A DNA stretch of 64,000 bases from Oceanicoccus sp. KOV_DT_Chl (lineage in GTDB: Bacteria > Pseudomonadota > Gammaproteobacteria > Pseudomonadales > Dasaniaceae). Within the stretch, counting starts at the first letter, position 1. Each line of letters starts with the position of its first letter. The DNA is taken from contig NZ_FQLF01000002.1 of assembly GCF_900120175.1 (NCBI RefSeq), positions 186,001 through 250,000 on the forward strand. Reading direction: 5' to 3'. Under the pieces are notes generated by a model. The model saw only the letters and a list, made by a program, of their open reading frames with translations. It had not been told where the DNA came from and did not search any database. Below are positions 3,741-22,665 of the stretch, piece by piece. The position numbers and the translations under genes are program-made.

Positions 3741-3768
3741 CCCCGATGGTCCGTTAAACACGTTTTAA
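3741..3768 (-). repeat. attC-like site type A, half only (array end)
   Basis: Only the right half of type A is recognisable: the central GGTCC, the GTTAAAC box and the TTTTAA end. The left half is replaced by unrelated sequence, so the array ends within the site. Confidence 0.7.
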
Positions 3769-3775
3769 ATGTTGC

Positions 3776-4030
3776 TTATTCATGAGCTATTTCTATAGGT
3801 TTAATTACACCAGCCATGGCCACACCCATTACACCTGTGAAAAATCCTATAAAAAACCAGCCAATTCTACTACGCCTCTTACCATTAGCAAGATAAGAAC
3901 TAAGCGCACCAAAACATACCATAGTAAATAGCAACGCTATAGACTTATCGTACTGGTAGAAAAATATTGTGCCTACGAATATAAACGCAAAATACGATAA
4001 TGCGAAAATAATTCTCTTTGCTGATTCCAT
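3776..4030 (-). CDS. Cassette: small three-helix membrane protein
   Basis: An 84-residue protein of unknown function with three predicted membrane spans (about 6-25, 30-48 and 57-76). ATG at 4030 is preferred over the TTG two codons earlier because AGGAAG lies 8 nt upstream. It is the distal-most cassette, next to the truncated end site. Confidence 0.65.
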   Translation of the reverse strand: MESAKRIIFALSYFAFIFVGTIFFYQYDKSIALLFTMVCFGALSSYLANGKRRSRIGWFFIGFFTGVMGVAMAGVIKPIEIAHE

Positions 4031-4049
4031 TTTCAAAACTTCCTAAGAC

Positions 4050-4097
4050 ATTTAACAGTGTGTTTAACAGACCCGATGGTCCGTTAAACACGTTTTA
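4050..4097 (-). repeat. attC-like site type A
   Basis: Core ATTTAAC on the cassette-start side, inner boxes GTTTAAC/GTTAAAC around GGACC-ATCG-GGTCT on the minus strand, and altered outer box CTTAAAA. Site of the methyltransferase cassette. Confidence 0.8.
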
Positions 4098-4700
4098 AGC
4101 ATTTTTCTCTATGCAAGCATAAGTACCTGCCAGTCCTTCCGGCAAAAAGGTGACGTCAACATTTTTTTGCCCAATATCAGTAATTGACCAGCCTTCTGTG
4201 AAGGTCGATCTTATATCTGACTCGGTAACTCCGCGGGGCGCGTTTGGAGTGGGTAGCGCAACAGCAAAATTTAGCATGTAGACCTTACCGCCGGGCTTTA
4301 ATATGCTTTTTAATATATTGGAATATTTGATGCGTGCTTCATCATCAAGCATATGAAAGAAGCAGCAATCTAGTATTGTGCCAAACTTTGTTTCTAGCTC
4401 CTCTAGTTTGAAAGCATCGTGCACTTTGAAGGACAAATTATGGTGCGGAGAGGAAAACCTTTCCTTTGCCAAATCTATAGCCCTTGGCGCAAAGTCTACT
4501 CCTAGGACTTCAGAGCCTAAGCCCGCCACAAACTCTGATAAATCTCCGGTTCCGCAACCTAGATCCAAGACCGGGGAATCAGGGGCGGACTCAGAAAATA
4601 CTTCCACGAAATACTTCTGAGGTTTTCCCACATCCCATGCGGGCTGGCCTTCATATTCTTCTTTAAACCGCTCAATCGACATTCCTGCTTGATTGTTCAT
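4095..4700 (-). CDS. Cassette: class I SAM-dependent methyltransferase
   Basis: A 201-residue methyltransferase with motif I VLDLGCGTGDLSEF (about residues 43-56), an acidic residue at the end of strand 2 (VLGVDFAPRAI) and a post-motif LKPGGKVYML. It would transfer a methyl group from S-adenosylmethionine, but the acceptor cannot be told from sequence. The size and N-terminal WDVGKPQ resemble small-molecule (thiopurine/tellurite-resistance-like) methyltransferases. AGGAG lies 6 nt before the ATG. Its stop codon lies at the edge of the type A site. Confidence 0.85.
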   Translation of the reverse strand: MNNQAGMSIERFKEEYEGQPAWDVGKPQKYFVEVFSESAPDSPVLDLGCGTGDLSEFVAGLGSEVLGVDFAPRAIDLAKERFSSPHHNLSFKVHDAFKLEELETKFGTILDCCFFHMLDDEARIKYSNILKSILKPGGKVYMLNFAVALPTPNAPRGVTESDIRSTFTEGWSITDIGQKNVDVTFLPEGLAGTYACIEKNA

Positions 4701-4720
4701 ACTTGCTCCTTGCTGGTGAT

Positions 4721-4770
4721 GCTTAACAGTGTGTTTAACAGACCCGATGGTCCGTTAAACACGTTTTAAG
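4721..4770 (-). repeat. attC-like site type A
   Basis: Complete type A sequence, same as the site at 4050. The following gene ends 24 bp away from it, not inside it. Confidence 0.8.
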
Positions 4771-4793
4771 TGTTTGTTGCGTATAACGTGCAA

Positions 4794-5048
4794 TTAATCT
4801 GTTCGCTCATTTAAATAATTAATAGCTTTTTCGGTAAGCTCTAATGGTTTTGGCCCACCACCAGTAAGAAAACTAGTCATGTTTCCCGGACAGCCTTCTT
4901 TTTTGCCATTCACAAATTCAATTCCATGACCATCTCCACGGAAGTCATGCCAGTAATTAGCGACTAATCGTTTTCCTTGGAAAATTCGATATTGGTAATT
5001 ACCAATAGCATCTCTATCCTTCTTATTTCTCTCTATTCGAAAGCTCAT
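4794..5048 (-). CDS. Cassette: hypothetical protein, 84 aa
   Basis: Soluble, charged 84-residue protein of unknown function with a Gly/Lys-rich middle (FRGDGHGIEFVNGKKEG). AGGTAAG lies just before the ATG. No family is recognised. Confidence 0.6.
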   Translation of the reverse strand: MSFRIERNKKDRDAIGNYQYRIFQGKRLVANYWHDFRGDGHGIEFVNGKKEGCPGNMTSFLTGGGPKPLELTEKAINYLNERTD

Positions 5049-5066
5049 AACTTACCTACTGGTGAC

Positions 5067-5144
5067 ACTTAACGCCTCAATAATGGGCGAAAAAAGCAAC
5101 GCTTTTTTGTCCAGCCGTAGGCGACATTGATTGACTTGTTAAGG
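5067..5144 (-). repeat. attC site, ordinary type
   Basis: Bounded by ACTTAAC and GTTAAGG cores, 78 bp, with inner GTCCAGCC box. The core supplies the stop codon of the next gene on its right. Confidence 0.85.
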
Positions 5145-5585
5145 CTTGTAGCCCACGTGATTTAACAATTTTCTTAGATCTTTACCAAAGTTCACATCGG
5201 TTCTTTGCGACTGATGGTAAAGAGCCTCCATACTTTCTATTGCTGGCATAAGTTCGATAACCATTGCGCACGGCTTAATTTCATTGCTGCCATATAGATA
5301 AACTATGTAACTATAACCAATTGCAAAGTGAGTATACATTGGTGATCTGAGCTGTATTACACCACTTTTATTCCCTTTGATTGGTTTAGCAATGCTGAAA
5401 TCTACAGCGATTTCTCCACGCCGAACATTACTTTTAAGTTTACCGCCGATAACTGTTCCAAATAAAACATCGCTCGATTTTTCCAAGTGCCTGATTGGAT
5501 CGAGAGAGTTTGGCGCGTCCAGGCACTCAGTTGCATTAACGGAGCAACTTAAAAGGGCAAATAGTAATGCGATGCTAAATTTCAT
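5139..5585 (-). CDS. Cassette: secreted hypothetical protein
   Basis: A 148-residue protein with a clear signal peptide (MKFSIALLFALLSCSVNA, cleavage near residue 18), so probably periplasmic. The function is unknown. The stop codon is the TAA of the attC core. The possible ribosome binding site AAGG lies in the GTTAAGG junction on the other side, which shows how the junction can feed translation of the next cassette. Confidence 0.7.
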   Translation of the reverse strand: MKFSIALLFALLSCSVNATECLDAPNSLDPIRHLEKSSDVLFGTVIGGKLKSNVRRGEIAVDFSIAKPIKGNKSGVIQLRSPMYTHFAIGYSYIVYLYGSNEIKPCAMVIELMPAIESMEALYHQSQRTDVNFGKDLRKLLNHVGYKP

Positions 5586-5590
5586 AGGGC

Positions 5591-5638
5591 CTTAACAGTG
5601 TAATAGTACGGACCCTGCGGTCCGTAGATTAATTTTTA
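5591..5638 (-). repeat. attC-like site type B
   Basis: TTAACAGTGTAATAG, then perfect arms TACGGACC/GGTCCGTA around CTGC, then an AT-rich end TTAATTTTTA that contains the stop codon of the next gene. Confidence 0.85.
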
Positions 5639-6031
5639 TGAGTTGTCGCATATTAAAAACACCATACTTAAAGCACCAATAATTAATAGCACGATTGACC
5701 CCCACCACAAATAATAAAGTGCCGAAATAGTGACTCGTGTTTCCAGCTCCATGCGAGTTACGACAATTTTTATATCGTGCTCCAAAGCACCTATTGTGGC
5801 GATACCAAAACCATACAGTAGTGATATAGCTACAGATAATACTATGGGAAAATAAAGAGCAAATTGAATATTTGAAACATTTGGGTGCGCAAAATAATAC
5901 GTAACTATTGAACCGGTGACAGCAAGGTAAAATGCATTGATTTTCAGAGATGTACTGAAATAATACTTATACAAATCCATGTATAGCGCATACCGCTCCC
6001 ACAACCATCCATTTTTATTTTCGTCATTCAT
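5636..6031 (-). CDS. Cassette: membrane protein, 131 aa
   Basis: Three predicted membrane spans (about 32-48, 57-83, 104-128) with a conserved-looking charged loop (EHDIKIVVTRMELETR). The function is unknown. The stop codon is provided by the type B site. Confidence 0.65.
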   Translation of the reverse strand: MNDENKNGWLWERYALYMDLYKYYFSTSLKINAFYLAVTGSIVTYYFAHPNVSNIQFALYFPIVLSVAISLLYGFGIATIGALEHDIKIVVTRMELETRVTISALYYLWWGSIVLLIIGALSMVFLICDNS

Positions 6032-6058
6032 AATGATGGAGCCTAAATTTGATTGTAC

Positions 6059-6139
6059 TCATAACGCCCACATAAAAGGCCGACCGATAGGGAGGTCCAG
6101 CGCAACGAAGTGGAGCAGTTTTTGATGTGTTTGTTAAAT
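6059..6139 (-). repeat. attC site, ordinary type
   Basis: TCATAAC to GTTAAAT, 81 bp, with inner GAGGTCCAGC box. Confidence 0.85.
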
Positions 6140-6141
6140 GT

Positions 6142-6570
6142 TTACTGGACAAGAAACTCCTTTGGAAGTATTTGCTCAGGTTCAGTTTGGAAAAACATAG
6201 ATGTAGCACCGACGCCTTTTGCACCACTATAGTAGTTGGCGACTGCAAAAGCCGGCCCATTTTCATACTCAAGAATACCTATGATATAGCATGACTTTGC
6301 ACCTAAGGCTTTGGTACTTAAAACTGAGGCGCTCTTTAATGGGCCAAAAAATTGCTCTATTTGTCCGAGTGCTTGTGCTTGACTGAGAGATCTTGTGTCG
6401 TTTTCCAAAGGGCCGTTTTTGAGAACACGCTTCATGAAGGCTGTCCCGCCTTCTTTTTTATACACTTCAACAGCAGCCGCAAACTCTTTCGAGGCACTAT
6501 CACAAACACCTGCGGCATGCGAACTTAGACTTAGGACACTTAAAGTAGCTATCAAGAACATTTTCTTCAT
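6142..6570 (-). CDS. Cassette: secreted hypothetical protein, 142 aa
   Basis: Signal peptide MKKMFLIATLSVLSLSSHAAG followed by about 120 residues of unknown function. AAGGAATAAAA precedes the ATG, a good ribosome binding site. It may be periplasmic or exported. Confidence 0.7.
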   Translation of the reverse strand: MKKMFLIATLSVLSLSSHAAGVCDSASKEFAAAVEVYKKEGGTAFMKRVLKNGPLENDTRSLSQAQALGQIEQFFGPLKSASVLSTKALGAKSCYIIGILEYENGPAFAVANYYSGAKGVGATSMFFQTEPEQILPKEFLVQ

Positions 6571-6611
6571 TTTTATTCCTTTTAGAGTTGTGCACGATTG
6601 CTTGCAGATAC

Positions 6612-6659
6612 ATTTAACAGTGTAATAGTACGGACCCTGCGGTCCGTAGATTAATTTTT
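6612..6659 (-). repeat. attC-like site type B
   Basis: Complete type B sequence with ATTTAAC core. The next gene stops 9 bp outside the site. Confidence 0.85.
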
Positions 6660-6667
6660 ATGCATTT

Positions 6668-6949
6668 TTAATACGCCTTCACCCAGCCTTTTTTAGCTTT
6701 ATAAATACTGAATACTACTACAAGTAAAAATAACACAACCTCATAGGCATAGTATTGAGTTTCCTTAATATTAAGGATTAGGACAACCGGGACCCCAACA
6801 CCAACAGCGTTATAGTACTGCCATAAATGGTAGTTAATTTTACCTTCGGTTGTTTTTATGCCGAAGGTACTTAAATACAATTTCTCAATAAGGACAAGTA
6901 CTATCCAAAAGCATAGGAATATTGGTATATAAAACTCATTCAGGAACAC
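6668..6949 (-). CDS. Cassette: membrane protein, 93 aa
   Basis: Three predicted membrane spans (about 7-27, 46-61, 66-83). GTG start with GGAA 8 nt upstream. The function is unknown. Confidence 0.6.
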   Translation of the reverse strand: MFLNEFYIPIFLCFWIVLVLIEKLYLSTFGIKTTEGKINYHLWQYYNAVGVGVPVVLILNIKETQYYAYEVVLFLLVVVFSIYKAKKGWVKAY

Positions 6950-6968
6950 GATCTTGATTCCATTTTAT

Positions 6969-7058
6969 GCATAACGCCTTTGTAACGGGCAGCATTGCTG
7001 CGAAGCAGCGCTTAATGCTGTCCAGCCCGAAGGGCGATCGTTGACAAACTTGTTAGGC
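6969..7058 (-). repeat. attC site, ordinary type
   Basis: GCATAAC to GTTAGGC, 90 bp, with a strong inner hairpin (CAGCATTGCTGCG / CAGCG) and GTCCAGCCCGAAGGGCG segment. It resembles the site at 13900. Confidence 0.85.
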
Positions 7059-7472
7059 TTCATCGTCAATTGTGTACTCGCTACTTGCAACACTACATAC
7101 CAACAAACCGAATATGATAATGACCATGAAATAAGCGCTTAATTCGATTGCCTCGATAGAACTGAAGCCCGGAAACGAAAAGTCTCTGTTGTGTTTCACA
7201 TGTGCCAGGTAGAAGCAATAACCTGAAGCCCCATAAAGTGAGGCAACGGCGGTAACGAGTTTTGCATTATGTAAAAATATTCTCCGAGCATATTTGAAGA
7301 CAAAACACCCAAAGCACATCAATGTCGCTGTTGCGATTAACTCAAGCGAGCCTGATAAAAAACTCATAGGATATAGCGTAAGAAAAAATAGGCAGCTTAT
7401 GAGAGGCTTAGAATGTATCTTCTTCCCATCATCCAGTTGCTGCTTATATTTCTCTAGATTGAAATATTTCAC
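7053..7472 (-). CDS. Cassette: membrane protein, 139 aa
   Basis: About four predicted membrane spans between residues 23 and 129. GTG start at 7472; the only AGG upstream comes from the GTTAGGC core. The stop is the TAA in the attC core. Function unknown. Confidence 0.6.
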   Translation of the reverse strand: MKYFNLEKYKQQLDDGKKIHSKPLISCLFFLTLYPMSFLSGSLELIATATLMCFGCFVFKYARRIFLHNAKLVTAVASLYGASGYCFYLAHVKHNRDFSFPGFSSIEAIELSAYFMVIIIFGLLVCSVASSEYTIDDEA

Positions 7473-7480
7473 TATTCAGA

Positions 7481-7564
7481 GCCTAACGCCGCCATAACCG
7501 GCCGGAGCACGCAGTGCGGAGGTCCAGCCAGCTTTGCTGGCGATGGTTGATGGCCTTGTTAGGC
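7481..7564 (-). repeat. attC site, ordinary type
   Basis: Textbook attC: GCCTAAC and GTTAGGC cores are perfect inverted copies, 84 bp, with GAGGTCCAGCCAGC inner box. Confidence 0.9.
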
Positions 7565-7990
7565 ATTTGCCACCTCGATTAACTTTGCACTTGGCTTTTT
7601 CTCTGATAACACATGAAGAAGATCATTCATGGCTATAAAGGCGAAGTGCGTTACTTTATGATTTTTGTACTCTTCTTCTGTATGCGTGCTTGCTGCATAT
7701 AAATCAGCCCACTTTGAATCGGGCACAATCAATGTTGGGTATGTCCAGTTAGTGAAAGTATCTTTTGAGCACTTTGGAAGAATATCAGGTAGATCAATTA
7801 TGCCATATGACTCATCTTCCCATTGCAGGGCAATAGGTTCTGAGAAAGTCAGCTCAAGATCTTTATTGCAACCACCGATAACTCTGGAAAAGTGCATGGT
7901 CACAATCAAACGAGCGTCACGCTCAGAAATCCACTGATAAGATATATCTGAACAGGGAACATCCAGCTCTTTAAATGCTTCCCACTTAAT
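7559..7990 (-). CDS. Cassette: hypothetical protein, probable AUU start
   Basis: A soluble protein of about 143 residues with unknown function. The first ATG in frame gives only 112 residues, but the frame is open upstream to the junction and reads as normal protein (KWEAFKELDVPCSDISYQWI). The best start is ATT at 7990, six bases after GGGAG, an uncommon start codon. The family is not recognised. Confidence 0.6.
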   Translation of the reverse strand: MKWEAFKELDVPCSDISYQWISERDARLIVTMHFSRVIGGCNKDLELTFSEPIALQWEDESYGIIDLPDILPKCSKDTFTNWTYPTLIVPDSKWADLYAASTHTEEEYKNHKVTHFAFIAMNDLLHVLSEKKPSAKLIEVANA

Positions 7991-8006
7991 GGTTATCTCC
8001 CTGTGT

Positions 8007-8055
8007 GCCTAACAGTGCAATAGTACGGACCCTGCGGTCCGTAGATTAATTTTTA
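8007..8055 (-). repeat. attC-like site type B
   Basis: Type B with one base change (AGTGCAAT for AGTGTAAT) and a GCCTAAC core. Its end carries the stop codon of the next gene. Confidence 0.85.
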
Positions 8056-8301
8056 TGTGATTGATCGTAGTTTAGCAATAATTTCATTTAATATTTCAAC
8101 GCCCATTGTTTTAGCTACAAGTTCGTTCATTTCGCCGCCTAGAAACTCCTGCCAAGAAACTATTTTGCACCCTGAACCGTGAGAGTGACGACCATACGCA
8201 GAAATAACGGTTTGATTATCCATGATTGATGCCTGATACAGTTCTTTATCTGGCTCATCGATTTTCCAATTTTGAATTGGTTTCGGAGGAATATAATTCA
8301 T
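8053..8301 (-). CDS. Cassette: hypothetical protein, 82 aa
   Basis: Small soluble protein with no recognised domain. No strong ribosome binding site is visible before the ATG. The stop lies in the type B site. Confidence 0.55.
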   Translation of the reverse strand: MNYIPPKPIQNWKIDEPDKELYQASIMDNQTVISAYGRHSHGSGCKIVSWQEFLGGEMNELVAKTMGVEILNEIIAKLRSIT

Positions 8302-8312
8302 TTTAGTATTTC

Positions 8313-8361
8313 ACATAACAGTGTGTTTAACAGACCCGATGGTCCGTTAAACACGTTTTAG
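8313..8361 (-). repeat. attC-like site type A
   Basis: Complete type A. The upstream gene is read into it and ends at a TAA inside its inner GTTAAAC box. Confidence 0.8.
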
Positions 8362-9028
8362 GCCAATTTTCGCTAGGGCCGGAAGGCTGCCAGCTATTTG
8401 CGATCTCTTTGGCTTTTGATAGGTCTGTTAGATTTAGAGTACGCTCACAGTAACCAGCGGTATCAGTTGCTGGTTTGTGAGCCAGTGAGCCCGGGCCTCT
8501 GCTGTACTTAACAGCACGGAATGTCCAAGCACAACCATTAATCAGGTCTTCGGGGCCAAGCTGGCCCGAGCCATACATTTGACCTAGATTGTGCATTGCT
8601 TGAGGCTCTCCGAGATTGGCAGACTTAAGATAAAGCTCGTGGGCTTTTTGGCGGTCTTGAGGTACGCCTAAGCCAAGATCATAGAGGTAGGCGAGATTAT
8701 TTATAGCCAGCTCATTATTCTGCGCGGCTGCTTTTTCATACCAGAACATAGCTTCATTGTACCGTTCTTCCGCTTGGTAGATACTGCCCATACTATTTTG
8801 TGCTTCCGGGTGCCCGGCCTCTGCTGCCTTCTTGTACCATTTCTCCGTTTCTTTTCCGCTACGTGGAACGCCGTAGCCGAAGTCATATAACCCACCTAAT
8901 TCAAATTGCGACTCTCTATCTCCTGCTTCAGCTTTTTGAATCAACTCTTGTATTTCAGGAGACGGAGGCGTGGCGGCACAGCTCGCAAGAAGTATTATTG
9001 ATATAAAGAGATATATGAGTTCCTTCAT
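8327..9028 (-). CDS. Cassette: Sel1-repeat lipoprotein
   Basis: A 233-residue protein with a lipoprotein signal (MKELIYLFISIILLASC, lipobox LASC) and at least three Sel1/TPR-like repeats (YDFGYGVPRSGKETEKWYKKAAEAGHPEAQ, YEKAAAQNNELAINNLAYLYDLGLGV and so on, each a separate stretch). Sel1 repeats form a protein-binding solenoid, here probably in the periplasm at a membrane. ATG at 9028 is chosen; the frame is open further up through the neighbouring type A site to 9091, which is not thought to be translated. The last ten residues (KTCLTDHRVC) are encoded by the type A site itself. Confidence 0.75.
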   Translation of the reverse strand: MKELIYLFISIILLASCAATPPSPEIQELIQKAEAGDRESQFELGGLYDFGYGVPRSGKETEKWYKKAAEAGHPEAQNSMGSIYQAEERYNEAMFWYEKAAAQNNELAINNLAYLYDLGLGVPQDRQKAHELYLKSANLGEPQAMHNLGQMYGSGQLGPEDLINGCAWTFRAVKYSRGPGSLAHKPATDTAGYCERTLNLTDLSKAKEIANSWQPSGPSENWPKTCLTDHRVC

Positions 9029-9049
9029 CGAAGCTCGATTCCTTAAGGG

Positions 9050-9098
9050 GCCTAACAGTGTGTTTAACAGACCCGATGGTCCGTTAAACACGTTTTAA
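9050..9098 (-). repeat. attC-like site type A
   Basis: Complete type A with GCCTAAC core. Confidence 0.8.
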
Positions 9099-9103
9099 GT
9101 GTT

Positions 9104-9379
9104 TTATCTACGCTGTATGTTTAATCTTAATTTTGCAGCATACGGCAAATACTTACGCTGCATTTTATATTGTATTTCAGTGAGCAATGAATAAAGTACT
9201 TCTCGCTCATCAATTTCCCGAACTGCAATTAAACCCATATTCAGTTCCTCGAGGCGATCAGGTGATGATTTTTCTAAAATCACCTCCAAACAGTACTCTA
9301 GCTGGATACGAATCATTTCCTGCCACGGCAACTTAAACCTAGCAAGTTCGGATAACGCTTTCTTGATCGATTCTTCCAT
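9104..9379 (-). CDS. Cassette: possible Tsi6-like immunity protein
   Basis: About 91 residues, helical, with the segment RLEELNMGLIAVREIDEREV followed by a short amphipathic helix. That segment resembles the pattern in the Tsi6 immunity family (LTLGSIAVKEFDE in the Pseudomonas protein, recalled from memory). Tsi6 proteins neutralise a type VI secretion toxin. No toxin gene lies next to it. An in-frame GTG at 9391 is an alternative start; no clear ribosome binding site separates the two. Confidence 0.5.
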   Translation of the reverse strand: MEESIKKALSELARFKLPWQEMIRIQLEYCLEVILEKSSPDRLEELNMGLIAVREIDEREVLYSLLTEIQYKMQRKYLPYAAKLRLNIQRR

Positions 9380-9389
9380 CTCGTTTGAC

Positions 9390-9438
9390 ACTTAACAGTG
9401 TAATAGTACGGACCCTGCGGTCCGTAGATTAATTTTTA
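9390..9438 (-). repeat. attC-like site type B
   Basis: Complete type B with ACTTAAC core. Confidence 0.85.
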
Positions 9439-9729
9439 TGTGTTTGAACTATATGCACGCACGACCTCTACAACTTGGACCGTATAGGATTTATACCATT
9501 TAGATTGGCCTTTACCTTGTGCAGATAAGTGCTCCGAGTTTTGTTTCCACTTCTTTATTTGTGATTCATTATCCCAGTATGAAATGGCAATCTCAGTATT
9601 CCCTTCTGTGCTAGCTATAAATTCCTTGCAGCCGTATTCATTTATAGCGAGGTCTCTCATTCTCTCGGCCATTGCTGAATACTCCGAATCTAGTTCTGAA
9701 ATCTCTGCCCGAAATATTACAGCGAACAT
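9436..9729 (-). CDS. Cassette: ABM-fold protein
   Basis: A 97-residue protein of the antibiotic biosynthesis monooxygenase (ABM) superfamily: MFAVIFRAEI strand, a helix with MAERMRDLAI, GCKEFIASTEG, then ISYWDNESQIKKWKQNSEH, the usual beta-alpha-beta ferredoxin-like layout. Family members are small dimeric oxygenases or heme/quinone-related enzymes, but many have no known substrate. Its stop codon is given by the type B site. Confidence 0.7.
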   Translation of the reverse strand: MFAVIFRAEISELDSEYSAMAERMRDLAINEYGCKEFIASTEGNTEIAISYWDNESQIKKWKQNSEHLSAQGKGQSKWYKSYTVQVVEVVRAYSSNT

Positions 9730-9751
9730 TTATACTTTATTCCTTGTAGAC

Positions 9752-9820
9752 ACATAACGCCGCCATAAATTGCCGCTTGAAGCGCAGCGTAAAGCGGTCG
9801 ATTTGATGGCTTTGTTAGCT
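9752..9820 (-). repeat. attC site, ordinary type
   Basis: ACATAAC to GTTAGCT, 69 bp, with inner GCCGCTTGAAGCGCAGCG hairpin. Confidence 0.85.
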
Positions 9821-9826
9821 TTGACA

Positions 9827-10318
9827 CTACTTAAGTTGAACACCGTTTATACTCATTGATAAATTAAAATATGCTTCTTTGACTGTTTTGGTCATATGTT
9901 TTGACGTTTGGTATTTACCAACTCCATTTTCCGTACTCACCAACCAGTATGTTTCGCCATTTATTTTTGGCAATATATGGTTCAGCGGAATCATACGACC
10001 TTTAACAATATCGCCACACCAAGGGACCGAAACTTCTACGTTGCCCAGTTTAGGATCAGTAAATTTAAATGAGCTAGTTTGACCTGATTTTTCAGAACCA
10101 ACCTCCCGAACGTCCCAGTAGTTTCCGCGCTCAGCGCATAAAGCATCGTAGTATTCTTCGCACTTTAATTCCATACTCATCTCCTGCTCTTGGAAGGCAA
10201 GGCTAACGATTATGTTTTTATCAATTGGTTTCGGTTCACGCTCTACTTTCATATCTATGCATTCATAGACCCCGCACCCACTTAACACGAGCATTGATAA
10301 CAATAATAGTTTCTTCAT
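9827..10318 (-). CDS. Cassette: lipoprotein of unknown function
   Basis: About 163 residues with lipoprotein signal MKKLLLLSMLVLSGC (lipobox LSGC). The mature part has several Cys and no recognised domain. ATG at 10318 is preferred; an ATG three codons earlier is possible. Confidence 0.65.
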   Translation of the reverse strand: MKKLLLLSMLVLSGCGVYECIDMKVEREPKPIDKNIIVSLAFQEQEMSMELKCEEYYDALCAERGNYWDVREVGSEKSGQTSSFKFTDPKLGNVEVSVPWCGDIVKGRMIPLNHILPKINGETYWLVSTENGVGKYQTSKHMTKTVKEAYFNLSMSINGVQLK

Positions 10319-10330
10319 GGCACTCATGAC

Positions 10331-10380
10331 AGCTAACAGTGTAATAGTACGGACCCTGCGGTCCGTAGATTAATTTTTAT
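10331..10380 (-). repeat. attC-like site type B
   Basis: Complete type B with AGCTAAC core. Confidence 0.85.
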
Positions 10381-10395
10381 GAGTGTTCTCGTGCA

Positions 10396-11085: not shown

Positions 11086-11101
11086 TCAATCTCATTGATA
11101 C

Positions 11102-15352: not shown

Positions 15353-15370
15353 ATGTTTCGTTACTGTGTG

Positions 15371-15420
15371 GCATTAACAGTGTAATAGTACGGACCCTGC
15401 GGTCCGTAGATTAATTTTTA
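15371..15420 (-). repeat. attC-like site type B
   Basis: Complete type B with CATTAAC core. It carries the stop of the next gene. Confidence 0.85.
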
Positions 15421-15837: not shown

Positions 15838-15842
15838 TTTTT

Positions 15843-15893
15843 ACACCTAACAGTGTAATAGTACGGACCCTGCGGTCCGTAGATTAATTTTTA
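15843..15893 (-). repeat. attC-like site type B of duplicated cassette, copy 1
   Basis: Complete type B with CACCTAAC core. Sequence identity between the two cassette copies begins exactly at its TTATG end. Confidence 0.85.
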
Positions 15894-16223
15894 TGTGCTG
15901 AATTTGACATACTGAAATACAATTAACCACATAAACCAAAGATTATTAATTAAGAGGCTTAACTGAAAAACCTCGTGTATATATTTTGGTGAATTATTTA
16001 ATTTGTAGAAATAATTTATTAAAACCAATTCCGTGGCCAACCATGAGAATACAACAAATACTATCGTAAAAGCACCTTCCCATTTAAATGGAAGTGCTTC
16101 GTAAAGTGCATACAGCCCAAGCAATACAGGAACTATCGAAATTATCAAATTTCCAATAGTTCGTCTTTTACGAAATGATTTCTCAGCATTATCCTTACTG
16201 AAGAAACCAGATAACTTACTCAT
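15891..16223 (-). CDS. Cassette: membrane protein, duplicated, copy 1
   Basis: A 110-residue protein with a basic N-terminus (MSKLSGFFSKDNAEKSFRKR) and three predicted membrane spans. Function unknown. It is identical in sequence to the gene at 16346-16678, and identity covers 366 bp including the 5' untranslated part, but this copy is followed by a type B site and the other by an ordinary attC. Confidence 0.7.
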   Translation of the reverse strand: MSKLSGFFSKDNAEKSFRKRRTIGNLIISIVPVLLGLYALYEALPFKWEGAFTIVFVVFSWLATELVLINYFYKLNNSPKYIHEVFQLSLLINNLWFMWLIVFQYVKFST

Positions 16224-16249
16224 ATTTTATAGCTCGATCTATCCATGAC

Positions 16250-16351
16250 ACATAACGCCGGCCACAGCGGTGAGTTAAACTGGCGCTTTTTTTGCGGCTT
16301 TTTGCAAAAAAAGTGACAGTTTGACGAGTCCGTTGCTGGCCCTTGTTATGT
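16250..16351 (-). repeat. attC site, ordinary type, of duplicated cassette copy 2
   Basis: ACATAAC to GTTATGT, about 102 bp, with a long hairpin (AAACTGGCGC ... GTGACAGTTTG). Related in its middle to the site at 21325. Confidence 0.85.
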
Positions 16352-16678
16352 GCTGAATTTGACATACTGAAATACAATTAACCACATAAACCAAAGATTA
16401 TTAATTAAGAGGCTTAACTGAAAAACCTCGTGTATATATTTTGGTGAATTATTTAATTTGTAGAAATAATTTATTAAAACCAATTCCGTGGCCAACCATG
16501 AGAATACAACAAATACTATCGTAAAAGCACCTTCCCATTTAAATGGAAGTGCTTCGTAAAGTGCATACAGCCCAAGCAATACAGGAACTATCGAAATTAT
16601 CAAATTTCCAATAGTTCGTCTTTTACGAAATGATTTCTCAGCATTATCCTTACTGAAGAAACCAGATAACTTACTCAT
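16346..16678 (-). CDS. Cassette: membrane protein, duplicated, copy 2
   Basis: Second, identical copy of the 110-residue three-helix membrane protein. The stop codon is the TAA of the ordinary attC core here, and of the type B end in copy 1. Confidence 0.7.
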   Translation of the reverse strand: MSKLSGFFSKDNAEKSFRKRRTIGNLIISIVPVLLGLYALYEALPFKWEGAFTIVFVVFSWLATELVLINYFYKLNNSPKYIHEVFQLSLLINNLWFMWLIVFQYVKFST

Positions 16679-16704
16679 ATTTTATAGCTCGATCTATCCA
16701 TGAC

Positions 16705-16754
16705 ACATAACAGTGTAATAGTACGGACCCTGCGGTCCGTAGATTAATTTTTAT
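16705..16754 (-). repeat. attC-like site type B
   Basis: Complete type B with ACATAAC core. Confidence 0.85.
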
Positions 16755-17212
16755 GCATTTGGGCACTCAACGCCACTGCATGACTCATGTGTATTTGATG
16801 GCTCAATTTTGACCCCGCATTGCGATTGAAGCTTTTCTTCTACTGCTGCTAGAAACGGATATATTGTATTAATTTTATTTTGATCTGGATAGCAATTAAG
16901 GCACGCATATCCATGCCTAAGCTCAACGCTGCCATCAAAGGATTCCCTAAAATAGAAGTTGTTCTCGATATTTTTGTAGGTATACCAATAACGATGGATG
17001 ATGTCCGGTTTTTCTATGCCGTGCATAGTTAATGGTTTGCTGCCCTCTTCAGTGGAGTACCTTATTGAAGAAACCCCCTCAATAGCGCGCGTGGCCTCCA
17101 GGACACACTCCGTACTTGGATACTGATTAAAGGAAGATGATCTAGTCACTCCCCGAACAAAGTCGCAAGCCGAAACCAGAATGCTTAATGTGATGATTAG
17201 TATGATCTTCAT
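16751..17212 (-). CDS. Cassette: lipoprotein of unknown function
   Basis: A 153-residue protein with lipoprotein signal MKIILIITLSILVSAC and a mature part with several Cys pairs (CLNCYPD, SCSGVEC). ATG at 17212 is chosen; the frame is open through the adjacent type A site up to 17263. Function unknown. Confidence 0.65.
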   Translation of the reverse strand: MKIILIITLSILVSACDFVRGVTRSSSFNQYPSTECVLEATRAIEGVSSIRYSTEEGSKPLTMHGIEKPDIIHRYWYTYKNIENNFYFRESFDGSVELRHGYACLNCYPDQNKINTIYPFLAAVEEKLQSQCGVKIEPSNTHESCSGVECPNA

Positions 17213-17221
17213 GGTTTTAGT

Positions 17222-17270
17222 GCATAACAGTGTGTTTAACAGACCCGGTGGTCCGTTAAACACTTTTTAA
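17222..17270 (-). repeat. attC-like site type A, variant
   Basis: Type A with loop CGGT in place of CGAT and an altered outer end (ACTTTTTAA for ACGTTTTAA). Confidence 0.75.
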
Positions 17271-17275
17271 CTCTT

Positions 17276-17992
17276 TTATAGCACAGACTTATGCTTATTA
17301 AGTTTTTCATCGATACCTACTATTTGAAAGCGCTCTTTCCATATTGTTAGAAATATATCCAATACGCAAACCCCAACTGTCTTAGCCGTTTTTACTGTAA
17401 ATGCCATAATCTGACCTTCACAGGTTAGATAAGTCTGTTTTAAGTGAGCTTTACCCTTTTCACTTCTATCAATCATCATTGAGCTGAAAACAGATGCTTC
17501 ATTCGGGTGTGCGCCGTAATCAATGCAGCGGCCATAAAGCTGCCTCGTGATTTCGTTGAGCTTTTTATTCTTTACTGACTTCATTACATTGCCGTGTGAA
17601 AATTCACTGCGACATTTATTTGTATCTTTTGGGGAGTTGGGGCGGTCCAGCCAAATTTGAACAGATTGTGGGCGCTTTACCATATGATTAGCATAAAGTG
17701 CGTACTCTATTGCTTGCCGCATAACCGTAAAAGACTCTATTTGGTGCCCAGCCATTACTAGATAAATCGCAGAACGAAATGCGGAGTGAGCTCTATAAAA
17801 AAGCACTGCTGGCCATATTTCTTCCGGGTTATCTATACTGTTGCCCGCGAGGACAAACAAACCGTCAATTTCTTTTAGTGTATTGTAATCTTCTTTTGAG
17901 TTGGCGAAAGTTGCCACTCCATTGGACATTGATATGTCTAGGTATTCGGATAAATCATCTTTCGCCCAGTTTTCTGGCAGAGTTTCATGCAT
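17276..17992 (-). CDS. Cassette: candidate HEPN-like protein, 238 aa
   Basis: A soluble helical protein of 238 residues. A segment of the form CRSEFSHGN contains R-x4-H, the signature of HEPN-domain RNases, after helices rich in aromatic residues (FYRAHSAFRSAIYLVMAG, RQAIEYALYANHMV). The motif is short and may occur by chance, so function is a hypothesis. The next but one cassette (18650) carries a similar motif. Confidence 0.5.
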   Translation of the reverse strand: MHETLPENWAKDDLSEYLDISMSNGVATFANSKEDYNTLKEIDGLFVLAGNSIDNPEEIWPAVLFYRAHSAFRSAIYLVMAGHQIESFTVMRQAIEYALYANHMVKRPQSVQIWLDRPNSPKDTNKCRSEFSHGNVMKSVKNKKLNEITRQLYGRCIDYGAHPNEASVFSSMMIDRSEKGKAHLKQTYLTCEGQIMAFTVKTAKTVGVCVLDIFLTIWKERFQIVGIDEKLNKHKSVL

Positions 17993-17996
17993 AGAG

Positions 17997-18013
17997 TTAA
18001 CAGTGTGTTTAAC
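17997..18013 (-). repeat. attC-like site type A, half only
   Basis: Only TTAACAGTGTGTTTAAC is present; the palindrome centre and the other arm are missing and the next gene's stop follows at once. A deletion derivative that may no longer recombine. Confidence 0.7.
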
Positions 18014-18544
18014 CTACCAATCATTATCCAAGGTAACTATCTCTTTAGCTTGGCTCGCAGCTCTAATAATTTCGAATACGGTCTTTTTACTATCTCCACC
18101 GTAATCGGGTAAACTATATATTTTTTTGTCAAACTCCTCATTATCATATCCGTTATTCTCTACGTCGATATTAATATCTTTATAGCGTATCCACCATCCA
18201 TCTGCCCCCGAGCATGTTTCGAATACTATAATCTCTGTTATACCCCAAGCTTCAATATTAGAAATTATTGAGTTTATAAAATCATGCAACAAATCGGAGA
18301 AACAGATATCAATAACTGTTGGTGAGTTTTCGACAATTTTCGTCGTGCTCATTGAATATATATTCATATCATTGGTGAAATAAGATGCAAACGGCTGATC
18401 TATCTCACGCAAAAATTCTTTTTCTCTACTAAAATCTTCAGATTTAGATTTTTCAATATTAAACTCACTGAAAACTGATAAAAACATTTCTTTTCTATCT
18501 TCACTTACAAAAGTTACTTGCAATTCTGCATATGATTCTGACAC
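18014..18544 (-). CDS. Cassette: hypothetical protein, 176 aa
   Basis: Acidic soluble protein of 176 residues. GTG start at 18544 with GGAG 7 nt upstream. No domain recognised. It directly abuts the half site, so it may be fused to the neighbouring cassette as one mobile unit. Confidence 0.6.
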   Translation of the reverse strand: MSESYAELQVTFVSEDRKEMFLSVFSEFNIEKSKSEDFSREKEFLREIDQPFASYFTNDMNIYSMSTTKIVENSPTVIDICFSDLLHDFINSIISNIEAWGITEIIVFETCSGADGWWIRYKDINIDVENNGYDNEEFDKKIYSLPDYGGDSKKTVFEIIRAASQAKEIVTLDNDW

Positions 18545-18559
18545 TTTACTCTCCTTTTA

Positions 18560-18649
18560 GGTTAACGCCCCGCTAAACGGCGAGCGTCAGCGAGTCCGGT
18601 GGAGGCCATGTTTTTTGTGGCCGGAACGAATTTGAGCGGTTTGTTAGCC
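18560..18649 (-). repeat. attC site, ordinary type
   Basis: GGTTAAC to GTTAGCC, 90 bp, with GTCCGGTGGAGGCC middle. Confidence 0.85.
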
Positions 18650-19105
18650 TTAGATGCCCAGCACATGAGATACACTCGAAATAACTTGGTGGGCCAGCTC
18701 AGCTTCTTTTTGCGCAACCTTAATTTCACCACTATCGAAGAATGCCTTTTCATGTACCAATTCCTTTCTTGTGGCTTTGAATAAATCAACTTTATCTAAT
18801 ATTTCGGAATCTGAAACACCCAATAAGACAAGCTTTTCTCGATAGGGCTTGAAATCATATTTTTTAAATTGATCATTGCCATGCCTAGAGACAATTAATT
18901 GATGGAGTATTGCCTCTAGCCACATGCCCGTAAAAACCACCACTATCATAGACTGTTTGAATGAGTTATGAGTATCGTCATATTTAATAATGTAGCCACC
19001 GGAGCCATCATCTTTTGGGGTTCTTCCCTTTTTCAAAAGCAAGCACATTTTTGAATATGCCTCTTCTGCTATTTCCTTATAAATTGATGCATTCGAGTAA
19101 ATCAC
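18650..19105 (-). CDS. Cassette: candidate HEPN-domain protein
   Basis: A helical protein of about 151 residues. Near the C-terminus it has FKATRKELVHEKAFF, containing R-x4-H (RKELVH) in a helix, as in HEPN ribonucleases, many of which are toxins or phage-defence effectors. A helix WLEAILHQLIVSRHG precedes it. GTG at 19105 with AAGGA upstream is chosen; the frame continues through the neighbouring site to 19180 but that part is junction DNA. Function is inferred. Confidence 0.5.
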   Translation of the reverse strand: MIYSNASIYKEIAEEAYSKMCLLLKKGRTPKDDGSGGYIIKYDDTHNSFKQSMIVVVFTGMWLEAILHQLIVSRHGNDQFKKYDFKPYREKLVLLGVSDSEILDKVDLFKATRKELVHEKAFFDSGEIKVAQKEAELAHQVISSVSHVLGI

Positions 19106-19122
19106 TCTCTCTGTTCCTTGTG

Positions 19123-19171
19123 AGGCTAACAGTGTGTTTAACAGACCCGCGGTCCGTATATTAATTTTTAA
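19123..19171 (-). repeat. attC-like site, type A/B chimera
   Basis: The left half is type A (AACAGTGTGTTTAACAGACC) and the right half is type B-like (GGTCCGTATATTAATTTTTA). They are joined at the shared GGACC/GGTCC palindrome with a shortened loop. Confidence 0.8.
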
Positions 19172-19176
19172 ACTTT

Positions 19177-20178
19177 TCACCCTCTCAGTCTTGCAATAAA
19201 GGCCGAAAGAATGCTTGGTTTTACTTTGTTTGGGTACAAGCCTTTTACAATATCGCTAACAAACTCAATCATTTCAGGGCTTCCTGACTCCTTAGCAAAC
19301 TTTTCAAGGTGGCCTTGGTTTCTGGCGTAAACTGACGCTGAAATATCAGAATTAAATTCATCTATAGACGCAGTAAATTTACCACCATGACCTAGAAGAA
19401 ATTTCAGTATTTGAAGATTCCCATTCTTGATGGCATAGATTAACGGCGTTATCGCCTGCTCTCCAGAGGCCACATTGGGATTTGCTCCATGCTTTATTAG
19501 TACTTCAACACAGTCAAAGTTTTCATGCTCAGTTGCTTCTTGCAATGGAGATTTAGGCCCGTGAATACTATGAAAGCTGTTTACAGTTTTCATTTTTATA
19601 TTTATATTTGATGCAATTAGTAACTTCTCGAGTATGCTTTTATTTCCTATTCTTGACGCCAGTGAAATTGCAATTCTATTTTTTATCCATTTAAAATCAG
19701 GCTTATATTCCAATAGTAAATCGACAATTGCCTCGTCAGAATTTTCTACAGCATAATATAATGGTGAATGAGTATCATTGTGGCATCTAAAGTTCTGATC
19801 CGCACCGTTTTCAAGCAATAATTTCACCACAGACTGTTTATTTGAGTGCGTTGCCCTGCACAAAGGGGAGCTTGGAATCCACATTCCAGCATGGCGTCCT
19901 TTCTCCGGGTTCACATCACACCCATTTAACAACAAGAAACTGACGACTTCAGTATCACCTTGGTGGCATGCGGCTTCAAAAGGAAATCCATAAACCCAAG
20001 AAGGCTCTTTTACATCTATGCCGTGTTGCAAAAAAGCTCTAATAACTTCAACGTCCCCTTTATCACAAGCCATTGCGAACAATTTACTTTTAACGATTCG
20101 CTGTGAACTTTCGCCATAGATGTAATCACTATCGCCACTTTCAATTGCATTTTCTATATCTGAAAAGTCTTCGGTCAT
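19177..20178 (-). CDS. Cassette: ankyrin-repeat protein
   Basis: A 333-residue protein, the largest in the array, with about six ankyrin repeats (for example VIRAFLQHGIDV, VVSFLLLNGCDVNPEKG, VVKLLLENGADQNFRCHN, CVEVLIKHGANPN, ILKFLLGHGGKF). Ankyrin repeats mediate protein binding. No signal peptide, so probably cytoplasmic. The partner is unknown. Confidence 0.8.
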   Translation of the reverse strand: MTEDFSDIENAIESGDSDYIYGESSQRIVKSKLFAMACDKGDVEVIRAFLQHGIDVKEPSWVYGFPFEAACHQGDTEVVSFLLLNGCDVNPEKGRHAGMWIPSSPLCRATHSNKQSVVKLLLENGADQNFRCHNDTHSPLYYAVENSDEAIVDLLLEYKPDFKWIKNRIAISLASRIGNKSILEKLLIASNINIKMKTVNSFHSIHGPKSPLQEATEHENFDCVEVLIKHGANPNVASGEQAITPLIYAIKNGNLQILKFLLGHGGKFTASIDEFNSDISASVYARNQGHLEKFAKESGSPEMIEFVSDIVKGLYPNKVKPSILSAFIARLRG

Positions 20179-20185
20179 ATTTTGA

Positions 20186-20262
20186 GTTTAACGCCTGCAA
20201 CACAGGCGGAGCGTAGCGACGTCCAGCCAGCTTGCTGGCGATTGTGCTTGCACTTGTTAAGT
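20186..20262 (-). repeat. attC site, ordinary type
   Basis: GTTTAAC to GTTAAGT, 77 bp, with GTCCAGCCAGCTTGCTGGCG hairpin. Confidence 0.85.
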
Positions 20263-20546
20263 GGGGAACTGCTGGCTGAGCTAAGTGCCGCTATGTGTAG
20301 CGTTAGCGGAACCGATATTGCCGGTAGCTCTCTGCAAGAAATCTTAGCCAATTTCCATTACCCAATTTCTCTTAGTGGCACACCACATAACGAAGTGATC
20401 TTTTGATGTTGCCACATTTGCTGAACGAAGGCACCAAGATGTTAATGCGGTGCTTTAAACTCAATGCTAGCACAATCTAAAATGACCTACAGTGTGAGAA
20501 CTACAATGCTTGTTGATCATGTAAAAAATATTTTGCAAGCAGAGCC
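20263..20546. other. Cassette without a recognisable gene
   Basis: About 285 bp between two junction sites. No minus-strand frame with a start and a ribosome binding site was seen. On the plus strand a 37-codon frame begins at an ATG near 20311 and ends at 20406, but it runs against the direction of all other cassettes and has no good ribosome binding site. It may hold a small RNA, a promoter or a decayed gene. Confidence 0.5.
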
Positions 20547-20597
20547 ATTTAACAGTGTAATAGTACGGACCCTGCGGTCCGTAGATTAATTTTTATG
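20547..20597 (-). repeat. attC-like site type B
   Basis: Complete type B with ATTTAAC core. Confidence 0.85.
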
Positions 20598-20611
20598 CAT
20601 TTCTCCGACCT

Positions 20612-21292
20612 CTAATCATCACTCATTTCCCCACACACAACACACCGTGCGCCGCTCCATGCAGAGTGACCACATGATGGACAACGAAAACTGCTATGGA
20701 CGTCTGGGCCGATTGGGCCACCACCGACACCATAAGGCCCCTTCACTAATCGAATGCCATTCTTCTCGCTTATTACCTCAATTAATGGGGAGAGCAATAT
20801 TGGCTCTTGAGAGACATCAACCTCTCGTTCGGCCTCATGGAACTGACTAAATTCCATAATTTCTTTTTGGATATTCTGTCCAAGACTGCCCGCATCTGCT
20901 GCTCTCTTGATGGTATTCCAAGCTCTAGACATTACTTGATTAGAAACAACTTTATTTGCCAGCTCTTCTGCATGAGCAGCTTTCTCCGCTGCTATTTCGA
21001 GCTCTAACTGGATTCGAGGCGTTGGCTTAAAGATGCGACTGCGCTTTCGATTGTTACACCTCGCACAAGAGGGAAGCCAGTTTCGATATGACTGAATATC
21101 GAAATCGTTAGGCAAATTGAAAGCCTCAATAGTCGCAGCTAGTTCTTCTGGGTTATCTAGCAGAGCCTCAGGTATAACATGATCTACTTGCATAGAATAT
21201 AAATCCACAGGCTCAGTGCACATATAACACTTTTCCCTGTGAGCAGTATAAACCGCGTATCGCTCTGCATCACTGAATTGACGTTTAGCCAC
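20612..21292 (-). CDS. Cassette: HNH endonuclease with C-terminal zinc ribbon
   Basis: A 226-residue protein with an N-terminal HNH nuclease domain: CYMC, then MQVDHVIPEAL (catalytic His after Asp), then NWLPSCARCNNRKRS with the second Cys pair. A long charged helical region follows, then a C-terminal zinc ribbon (CPSCGH ... CVVCGE). HNH domains cut DNA in homing, restriction and phage systems. No methyltransferase partner is present. GTG start at 21292. Confidence 0.8.
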   Translation of the reverse strand: MAKRQFSDAERYAVYTAHREKCYMCTEPVDLYSMQVDHVIPEALLDNPEELAATIEAFNLPNDFDIQSYRNWLPSCARCNNRKRSRIFKPTPRIQLELEIAAEKAAHAEELANKVVSNQVMSRAWNTIKRAADAGSLGQNIQKEIMEFSQFHEAEREVDVSQEPILLSPLIEVISEKNGIRLVKGPYGVGGGPIGPDVHSSFRCPSCGHSAWSGARCVVCGEMSDD

Positions 21293-21324
21293 TTGCTATA
21301 AAATCCTCATGTGCCTATCTGATT

Positions 21325-21436
21325 GCATAACGCCTTTAGCATGGGCCGGAGCAAACTGGCGGCTTTTTTGGAACAAAAAAGGTGACAGTTTGCGGAGGTC
21401 CAGCACGAAGTGCGAGCATGGCTAAACTTGTTATAG
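21325..21436 (-). repeat. attC site, ordinary type, long
   Basis: GCATAAC to GTTATAG, 112 bp, with a long hairpin (AAACTGGCGGC ... GGTGACAGTTTGC). Confidence 0.85.
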
Positions 21437-21438
21437 CT

Positions 21439-21759
21439 TTACTCACTAATTTCTACCTTACGCCCATCTGGGTCTGTAAGTACATATATAGTATTACCTT
21501 CAAACTCATATGAACTAGTGACGGTTACATTTTTAATTGTGGTGGCTAGATCTGAAACCTTAAAACCTAACCGATTATTGTCCTGCGGAGATTCACCGTT
21601 GTTTGGGTAAAGCTCAAATACAATGCCATCATGCTCACATGAATAATGCGCAGGGCCATTACCATGTTTCTCTTTGACAAAAGACAAACCCAGCAATTGG
21701 TAGAAGCCTTTACTTACTTCTATATCTTTGCACCTAATGACTAAGAGAGAAATTTTCAA
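21439..21759 (-). CDS. Cassette: VOC/glyoxalase-fold protein
   Basis: A 106-residue vicinal-oxygen-chelate protein: VIRCKDIEVSKGFYQLLGL at the start and VLTDPDGRKVEI at the end, the usual beta-alpha-beta-beta-beta pattern. Such proteins include glyoxalases, dioxygenases and antibiotic-binding resistance proteins; the substrate cannot be told. TTG start at 21759 with TGGAG upstream. Confidence 0.8.
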   Translation of the reverse strand: MKISLLVIRCKDIEVSKGFYQLLGLSFVKEKHGNGPAHYSCEHDGIVFELYPNNGESPQDNNRLGFKVSDLATTIKNVTVTSSYEFEGNTIYVLTDPDGRKVEISE

Positions 21760-21773
21760 CTAATCTCCAATGG

Positions 21774-21861
21774 GCTATAACGCGGAGGTAATGGGCAGCT
21801 TTGTGGCGAAGCCACGCTTAAAGCTGTCCAGCCGAAGGCGCCATTGACCGTTTTGTTATGA
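21774..21861 (-). repeat. attC site, ordinary type
   Basis: GCTATAAC to GTTATGA, 88 bp, nearly the same inside as the site at 14342. Confidence 0.85.
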
Positions 21862-22155
21862 CTTTGTTGCATGTAATTCCAGCTTACAATTTTGGCACTC
21901 GTTGGATCCTGGACCAAGAATAACTTTTGCAGAGCTACCAAAAGGGGCTTTGCAACGAGGGCACGGAGTATGGGCAGTACGATAAAGCCGATGGTAAAAA
22001 AGAGCAAAGGCAGCAATACCAAAAACTGGTGCCATAGCGGGTATAAAGTACTGGGATACCAGACCTGTGATGAGACAGAGAGCTATAGGTGCATCCAGCT
22101 TGTACAATTTTTCCCTCTTTTCCTTTATCGTTCGTAGCTCGTGCTCAAATTCCAT
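21856..22155 (-). CDS. Cassette: membrane protein with zinc-ribbon tail
   Basis: A 99-residue protein with two membrane spans (about 25-58) and a C-terminal CPRC ... CQNC pair typical of a small zinc ribbon. Function unknown. The stop is from the attC core. Confidence 0.65.
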   Translation of the reverse strand: MEFEHELRTIKEKREKLYKLDAPIALCLITGLVSQYFIPAMAPVFGIAAFALFYHRLYRTAHTPCPRCKAPFGSSAKVILGPGSNECQNCKLELHATKS

Positions 22156-22172
22156 GTTTTAGCTCTGGGAAG

Positions 22173-22243
22173 TCATAACGCCTCAATAAAGGGCGCGCGT
22201 TAGCGCGTCCAGCCGAAGGCGAACTTTGATTGACTTGTTATGA
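22173..22243 (-). repeat. attC site, ordinary type
   Basis: TCATAAC to GTTATGA, 71 bp, with GGGCGCGCGTTAGCGCGTCC hairpin. Confidence 0.85.
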
Positions 22244-22253
22244 GTTTTTACAC

Positions 22254-22613
22254 TCAATACCCGAACGTGCTAGGCTCTTCACTACCCGAGCCATGGAACG
22301 CCCCCGCAATACCACCTAATACTGTGAATATAAAAACTAGCAAGCTAGGCGCCATCCAAAGCTCAGCATAATAGTATGTACTGATTAGAAACCCTGACAT
22401 CATACCACCTATAGCCTGCTGTACTTTCAGCTTGAGTGTAATGTTACTACTTGATAACTCTGGGCCAATTACTATTCCAAGCGTGACACCGATTGCTGCA
22501 ATATGAGAAAGCTCATAAGATTTTTCAATACCGTTGAATATGGCGACAGATGCCAATCCAATTGCTATAAAAATACTAGCGACAACAGTTAGCTTGGCTG
22601 GATGCATATTCAT
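22254..22613 (-). CDS. Cassette: four-helix membrane protein, 119 aa
   Basis: About four predicted membrane spans, ending in a Gly/Ser-rich tail. It is the right-most cassette gene, the position that would be closest to the integrase in a complete integron. Function unknown. Confidence 0.6.
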   Translation of the reverse strand: MNMHPAKLTVVASIFIAIGLASVAIFNGIEKSYELSHIAAIGVTLGIVIGPELSSSNITLKLKVQQAIGGMMSGFLISTYYYAELWMAPSLLVFIFTVLGGIAGAFHGSGSEEPSTFGY

Positions 22614-22615
22614 GA

Positions 22616-22665
22616 CTCATAACAGTGTAATAGTACGGACCCTGCGGTCCGTAGATTAATTTGTA
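22616..22665 (-). repeat. attC-like site type B, right end of array
   Basis: Type B with the end changed to TTAATTTGTATTGG. No cassette gene follows on its right, so the cassette that owned this site has been lost. Confidence 0.8.

Follow-up and report, generated by a model that had tools for sequence, protein, structure and literature searches.

The closest described relatives of the sites reported here are the Delta-attI cassettes of class 1 and class 2 integrons, in which attI sequence ending at the core lies behind the open reading frame (ORF), in the place of attC. Partridge et al. (2000), as relayed in PMC12901181, proposed that Delta-attI1 cassettes originated by recombination between the L box of attI and R'' of an attC site, and those Delta-attI cassettes that were tested were excised and inserted by IntI1. 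According to the same source, the counts of such cassettes are 96 for 1,685 class 1 integrons and 14 for 57 class 2 integrons, seven of the eight types carry 14–18 nt of attI and the remaining one 244 nt, and the genesis of gene cassettes is a named knowledge gap. Here, we analysed a 64,000-nt stretch of the genome of Oceanicoccus sp. KOV_DT_Chl (contig NZ_FQLF01000002.1, positions 186,001–250,000, G000:C2:186001-250000; hereafter the window), in which a chromosomal integron cassette array spans positions 3741-22665, with its cassettes read on the minus strand. Many of these cassettes end in very short attC-like sites of two kinds, types A and B. We put at roughly two in three the probability that the type-B sites are cassette sites of attI sequence, in which the cassette's own R'' is kept and the fold is attC-like, and that they represent a hairpin-bearing chromosomal variant of the Delta-attI cassettes.

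Our parse of the array gave 36 junction cores and one half-site at the array end. Twenty-one of these 37 junctions are short sites, the same tally as that of an earlier, independent reading made from the letters of this DNA only (the sequence-only reading), and the remaining 16 are ordinary attC. The short sites comprise 13 of type B, five of type A, one A/B hybrid and two type A remnants. They exceed chance expectation, a 70-nt repeat family being present in 13 copies. The earlier reading had treated all 37 as cassette junctions; we correct this in that the sites at 19127 and 17998 are a recombinant and a remnant, respectively, and that the type-B copy at 22620 reads TACAAA, heads the array and is attI. 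The type-B cassette sites therefore number 12, at 12 of the 36 cassette junctions of the array. From TAA to TTA, type B spans 46 nt, type A 45 nt and the hybrid 44 nt, whereas ordinary attC span 56–106 nt. The earlier reading had described these sites as shorter than those known to it; by this measure, the difference from the shortest ordinary site here is small (46 versus 56 nt).

No cassette lies behind the junction at 22620. It ends a 369-bp leader (22620-22988, minus strand), in which the type-B hairpin abuts the core, with another, imperfect palindrome upstream of it; a 98% identical copy at C2:1118568-1118936 also heads an array. The intact arrangement is found on contig C72 of G006, a genome of the same genus: an integron integrase gene (380 bits, cut-off 265), an attI region and an array follow one another in this order. 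Of the seven cassettes of that array that are readable by eye, four end in short sites and the other three in ordinary attC. An alignment of the window leader with the attI–intI region of this contig gives 71% over 231 bp and reaches the start of intI. The intI frame of the window, which starts at approximately 22843 on the plus strand, stops after 33 codons, and its first 23 codons are collinear with the G006 protein at 39% identity, a match that is not significant alone (E 8.5). On the basis of this alignment and the stopped reading frame, we conclude that the window leader is attI and that the window array has lost its integrase, with only a collinear 5' remnant of intI left; the C72 site is likewise taken as attI by position and homology.

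The type-B cassette sites of the window are located on the minus strand at 20550-20595, 16708-16753, 15848-15893, 15375-15420, 14812-14857, 13050-13095, 12558-12603, 10334-10379, 9393-9438, 8010-8055, 6615-6660 and 5593-5638. All were assigned by R'' pairing and comparison with attI, complemented by a covariance model or, at 15848-15893, by comparison of the two copies of a duplicated cassette. Together with two sites each in loci L025 and L026 of the same genome, these make 16 B-type cassette sites, 14 of which are identical to attI over the 43 nt ending at the core, and the other two differ by one base. In G006, none of the four short sites of the C72 array differs from the attI of that genome over the 43 nt. 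The attI sequences of the two genomes differ from each other at four positions, and the cassette sites carry the version of their own species. In both genomes, the attI-matching block starts at the same attI position, immediately after the TAA of the cassette. The site at 8010-8055 has one substitution (GCACTG); retention of ACACTGTTA, claimed earlier for the short sites in general, is seen in 19 of the 20 core-bearing short sites, and this site has GCACTGTTA instead.

One cassette is present with both kinds of site. Its two tandem copies, 16346-16711 (first) and 15891-16256 (second), have identical bodies, but the first ends in an ordinary attC (16253-16348, minus strand), whereas the second ends in the type-B site at 15848-15893. 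The two end sites agree through CACATAA and diverge at the next base (C versus A). This is the AA^C crossover point of R'', the position of which is in line with PMC4792948. In the proposed makeup of a type-B site, the R'' of the cassette (NNNTAA) is followed by the terminal portion of the resident attI, approximately 40 nt that end at the core G^TTA and are composed of the palindrome ACGGACC-N4-GGTCCGT and an ACACTG spacer. Such a site could be generated if R'' of an ordinary attC crossed over with the attI palindrome at its left end, following the published scheme for Delta-attI1, in which the L box takes part. Exchange at R'' is made plausible by the lack of extrahelical bases on this arm (R''-L'') in types A and B; deletion of extrahelical bases has been reported to raise top-strand recombination and to move its point to R'' (PMC2727003). 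An equally simple route, which is our own proposal, would be that replication of the one-strand integration intermediate switches template where the attC hairpin has its base. Since attI directly precedes the old first cassette, a single jump from R'' to attI would yield the observed product. A limit to generality is that the cassette with both site kinds is one case, and two other cassettes present in two arrays have ordinary attC in both.

The short sites belong to the cassettes that they end. In attC, the outer bases of R'' pair with the beginning of the cassette that carries the site. We therefore compared the four bases that flank TAA on its outer side with the beginning of that cassette, using shuffled starts as the control. 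In the window, 18 short sites have a usable R'' (both remnants and the 22620 leader were excluded), and their own-cassette match extended to 72 of 72 positions, a value reached in 0 of 20,000 shuffles (mean, 33.1), whereas the start of the downstream neighbour matched at 22 of 72. The 16 ordinary attC of the window gave 61 of 64 own-start matches. Outside the window, 51 of 52 positions matched in 13 short-site cassettes (shuffled, 18.6; 0 of 20,000), which were taken from L024, L025 and L026 (all of the same genome), G004:C48 and G006:C72, with limits read from the sequence; L109, L110, L111, L135, L054, L057, L060, L061 and L112 were left out of this parse. The short sites are cassette-borne and lie at the 3' end of the cassette with the core at the junction, in 18 of the 18 testable cases in the window.

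With its own R'' and R', type B folds into an outer stem of 7 bp, an unpaired 5/4-base spacer and a 4-bp stem; beyond a small asymmetric loop, an 8-bp stem closes on a loop of 4 bases. Type A forms a long, nearly symmetric hairpin. The sequence-only reading had proposed folding the sites as a check, and both types fold beyond shuffled controls: the z values for DNA folding are -4.6 for type B and -5.6 to -6.7 for type A, and 0 of 200 shuffles fold as well as either type on either strand (for the G006 site, taken without flanks, 1 of 200 does). In an alignment of 21 distinct short-site variants from eight genomes, 88.6% of the cells are paired, against at most 42.0% for slid structures, with 18 double-change cells (6.6 in shuffled alignments; 0 of 500) and seven doubly changed pairs (4.2; 4 of 500). 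The L''/L' pairing and the terminal stem are conserved as structure, and types A and B are two branches of a single structural family of the rough form TAA-AAA-stem-GGACC-N4-GGTCC-stem-ACTG-TTA. What stands of the earlier proposal of a minimal attC family is this attC-like behaviour, namely cassette-borne sites whose R'' pairs with their own cassette start and whose stem covaries. We infer that the folded strand of the short sites is recombined by IntI in the same manner as attC.

To score sites across genomes, a covariance model of the short-site family was applied to the best 150 first-look candidates of each genome (150 of 1,713 in G000). In the 4.8-Mb G000 genome, it yielded 28 matches, all of which are located in four cassette arrays (the window, L024, L025 and L026) and two of which are attI. 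Dispersal outside cassette arrays, which the sequence-only reading had named as evidence against itself, was not seen among the candidates scored, and on these 28 of 28 matches we reject a dispersed palindromic element. Insertion of an independent palindromic element into attC stems, or replacement of the stems by it, would account for the near-identical copies. The earlier reading had raised this, and the ordinary/type-B difference in the duplicated cassette agrees with replacement as such. However, type B has the sequence of the attI that heads this array, the edges fall at R'' and R', the R'' pairing is intact in all 18 sites and a search of viral contigs gave 0 stretches; together with the confinement of the matches to arrays, these observations make an independent element very improbable.

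We give as little credence to the view that it is expression and not recombination for which the hairpins are maintained, with a role as an operator, a transcript end or a leader structure. The palindrome is also present, in an operator-like manner, in the spacer between intI and attI, and the type-B stem is followed by a run of T on the plus strand, both of which such a role would explain, but it leaves unexplained the pairing of R'' with its own cassette start and the edges at the crossover point. In addition, no Rfam match at E 0.1 was obtained across window positions 3500-23200.

Among the 10 genomes of the family, the model also gave eight matches in G004, six in G006 and one in G005, and none in the other six (best 150 candidates each). 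An exact-pattern search of the Genome Taxonomy Database (GTDB) collection, from which the window's own or very near records were possibly omitted, returned nine stretches. Five of these are gammaproteobacterial and look like cassette sites. The other four are betaproteobacterial (two Chitinimonas, one Rhodocyclaceae and one unclassified), and in them the hairpin heads, as judged by eye, an apparent array of other attC, with ACGGACC-N4-GGTCCGT preceding AAACACTGTTA (L053 942-1005, L055 748-811, L056 2563-2626 and L059 3540-3603). Neither a short attC behind the leader nor intI was seen in the four stretches examined; an integron integrase over the cut-off is present elsewhere in one of the four genomes (G012), with no match in G007, G009 and G010. 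Plasmids contained nothing matching the window leader or the Chitinimonas leader.

These leaders bear on the direction of transfer. We favour, although not firmly, a movement of the sequence from attI to the cassette, because the palindrome arm is repeated in the intI–attI spacers of both species and the betaproteobacterial leaders carry the hairpin. In the attI regions of the two species, 6-mers of the palindrome arm recur upstream 6 times against 0.21 (0 of 1,000) and 4 times against 0.31 (4 of 1,000). The reverse history is that the short sites are a taxon-specific short attC family spread by cassette genesis and shuffling, and that attI later took over attC sequence. Short sites are present in eight genomes, six of which have no matching attI in the stretches examined, those of G004 differ by 8.05 bases on average and yet mostly pair, and similarity among the attC of a taxon is already known (PMC8352920), all of which would fit an attC origin. 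The repeated arm in both spacers and the four betaproteobacterial leaders, whose stretches show no short attC, speak against it, and the identity of attI and cassette sites within each genome requires copying in either direction. We consider an attC origin unlikely, if well short of negligible.

Several observations weigh against the derivation of type-B sites from attI. The attI match is known from two genomes, and short sites without a matching attI in the stretches examined are found in G004, G005, G008, G011, G013 and G014; no attI matching type A was found among the loci examined. Because short sites are more widely distributed than attI that match them, and type A is without one, attI may instead have copied attC, and caution on the direction is required. 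In L025, the site at 12968 differs from attI at 8 of 43 positions even though its array is led by the type-B attI, and on contig C490 of G006 there is a diverged site (48.2 bits). In G004, a genome of the same genus in which seven of the eight short sites are comparable over 43 nt (giving the mean difference above), homology and model searches found no type-B-like attI. Recurrence of the palindrome arm was positive in five of 13 attI regions, negative in six and not applicable in two, and a more general test for repeated palindromes exceeded shuffles in 0 of 12 attI regions; repeated palindromes are therefore not claimed as a rule. The number of pair types among the 21 variants is not above that of shuffles (14 versus 14.5). 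Finally, the folds of types A and B have no extrahelical bases on the R''-L'' arm: the extra base of type B is on the R'-L' arm, and the stem of type A is symmetric. One variant, L054, has, by eye, a single extrahelical base on the R''-L'' arm.

Compared with Delta-attI cassettes as described in the source cited above, the type-B sites share the placement of attI sequence ending at the core but contain a whole hairpin of approximately 40 nt with a covarying stem, and the R'' of the cassette is kept and pairs. They also differ in abundance, as type B occupies a third of the cassette junctions in the window and short sites end four of the seven cassettes on the G006 contig, and in matching the resident attI in two species. 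In common with attC (Bouvier et al. 2009, PMC2727003), the short sites lie at the cassette end and have R''/R' and L''/L' pairing, an unpaired spacer and a terminal stem. Differences from attC as described there are that R'' reads TAAAA and not TAAC, a feature correctly noted by the sequence-only reading, that A follows AAC in R', where most attC have G, that type B contains attI sequence, and that the R''-L'' arm is without extra bases. Because this last feature is one that defines attC, we do not file the short sites as canonical attC. Programs for finding attC may miss them, as they have TAAAA for TAAC. By their position and homology, the window leader and the C72 site are attI, but unlike attI1, with its direct repeats and L and R boxes, their core-proximal part is a hairpin that doubles as a cassette site; the attI × attI reaction uses both strands (Escudero et al. 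2016, PMC4792948).

The presence of attI sequence at cassette sites suggests that the two classes of integron site can turn into each other. As a more tentative idea, which we regard as possible but doubtful, attI and attC would not be separate classes here: the attI hairpin would be a foldable attC, and attI could overwrite the attC stem of entering cassettes. If this is true, the array would be drawn towards its resident attI, and the hairpin would provide a link between the double-stranded attI and the folded attC and a source of new cassettes. An array with its resident attI sequence in 12 of 36 cassette sites, and with one cassette in both states, provides a natural test system for exchange at R'' and for the conversion of attC by attI. 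Among the listed titles and abstract beginnings of an open-access full-text library, which largely lacks subscription journals, and in the papers cited here, we found no report of attI-identical hairpin sites serving as the cassette sites of a chromosomal array.

The type A cassette sites of the window, identified by R'' pairing and the covariance model, are located on the minus strand at 17225-17269, 9053-9097, 8316-8360, 4724-4768 and 4053-4097, and three more are present in L024. As noted in the earlier reading, five bases separate GTTAAAC from the GTTA core in this type. The two remnants, seen from the sequence on the same strand, are the right half at 17998-18013, which retains only the R' half and the core, and the left half at the far end of the array (3744-3767), which retains only the R'' half. 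The hybrid at 19127-19170 (minus strand; parse, alignment and covariance model) has an R'' half of type B and an R' half of type A, and with stem halves from different types its outer stem is unpaired. It looks like the product of a crossover inside a hairpin.

Two type-B cassettes in L026, on another contig, lie behind a different leader, which suggests that such cassettes are mobile. In line with mobility, the cassette next to an attI-like site in G004, the first of its array, carries a B-type site. The only integrase match over the cut-off in the G000 genome is located at C2:1766356, beside an attI of different sequence; the encoded integrase shares 39% identity with the G006 protein, and a motif scan of the 60 kb around it found no short site. 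This integrase could act in trans on the window array.

The leader of L026 (approximately 10461-10640), followed by the two type-B cassettes, belongs to a second leader family of the same genome, ending in TTTTTCTACAG[T/C]CTC^GTTA before the cassettes. Its other members are in L051 (approximately 3640-3840) and L052 (approximately 4100-4305), and the parts of these loci that were read showed no intI. A common repeat of approximately 50 bp (GTCCGCTTTC...AATTGATTA...GGGTCA) marks the end of the type-B leader and of two leaders of the second family; it is found at approximately 22889-22990 in the window, 3790-3845 in L051 and 4100-4160 in L052. Either movement of whole leaders or cutting at this repeat may explain the shared end. 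In G004, a second copy of the attI-like site of contig C48 (98% over 59 bases) is present at L050 15915-15973, approximately 5.5 kb from the first. Beyond the head of the window array, two ORFs on the minus strand (23327-24998) resemble, by eye, the SOS-type polymerase pair UmuC/UmuD.

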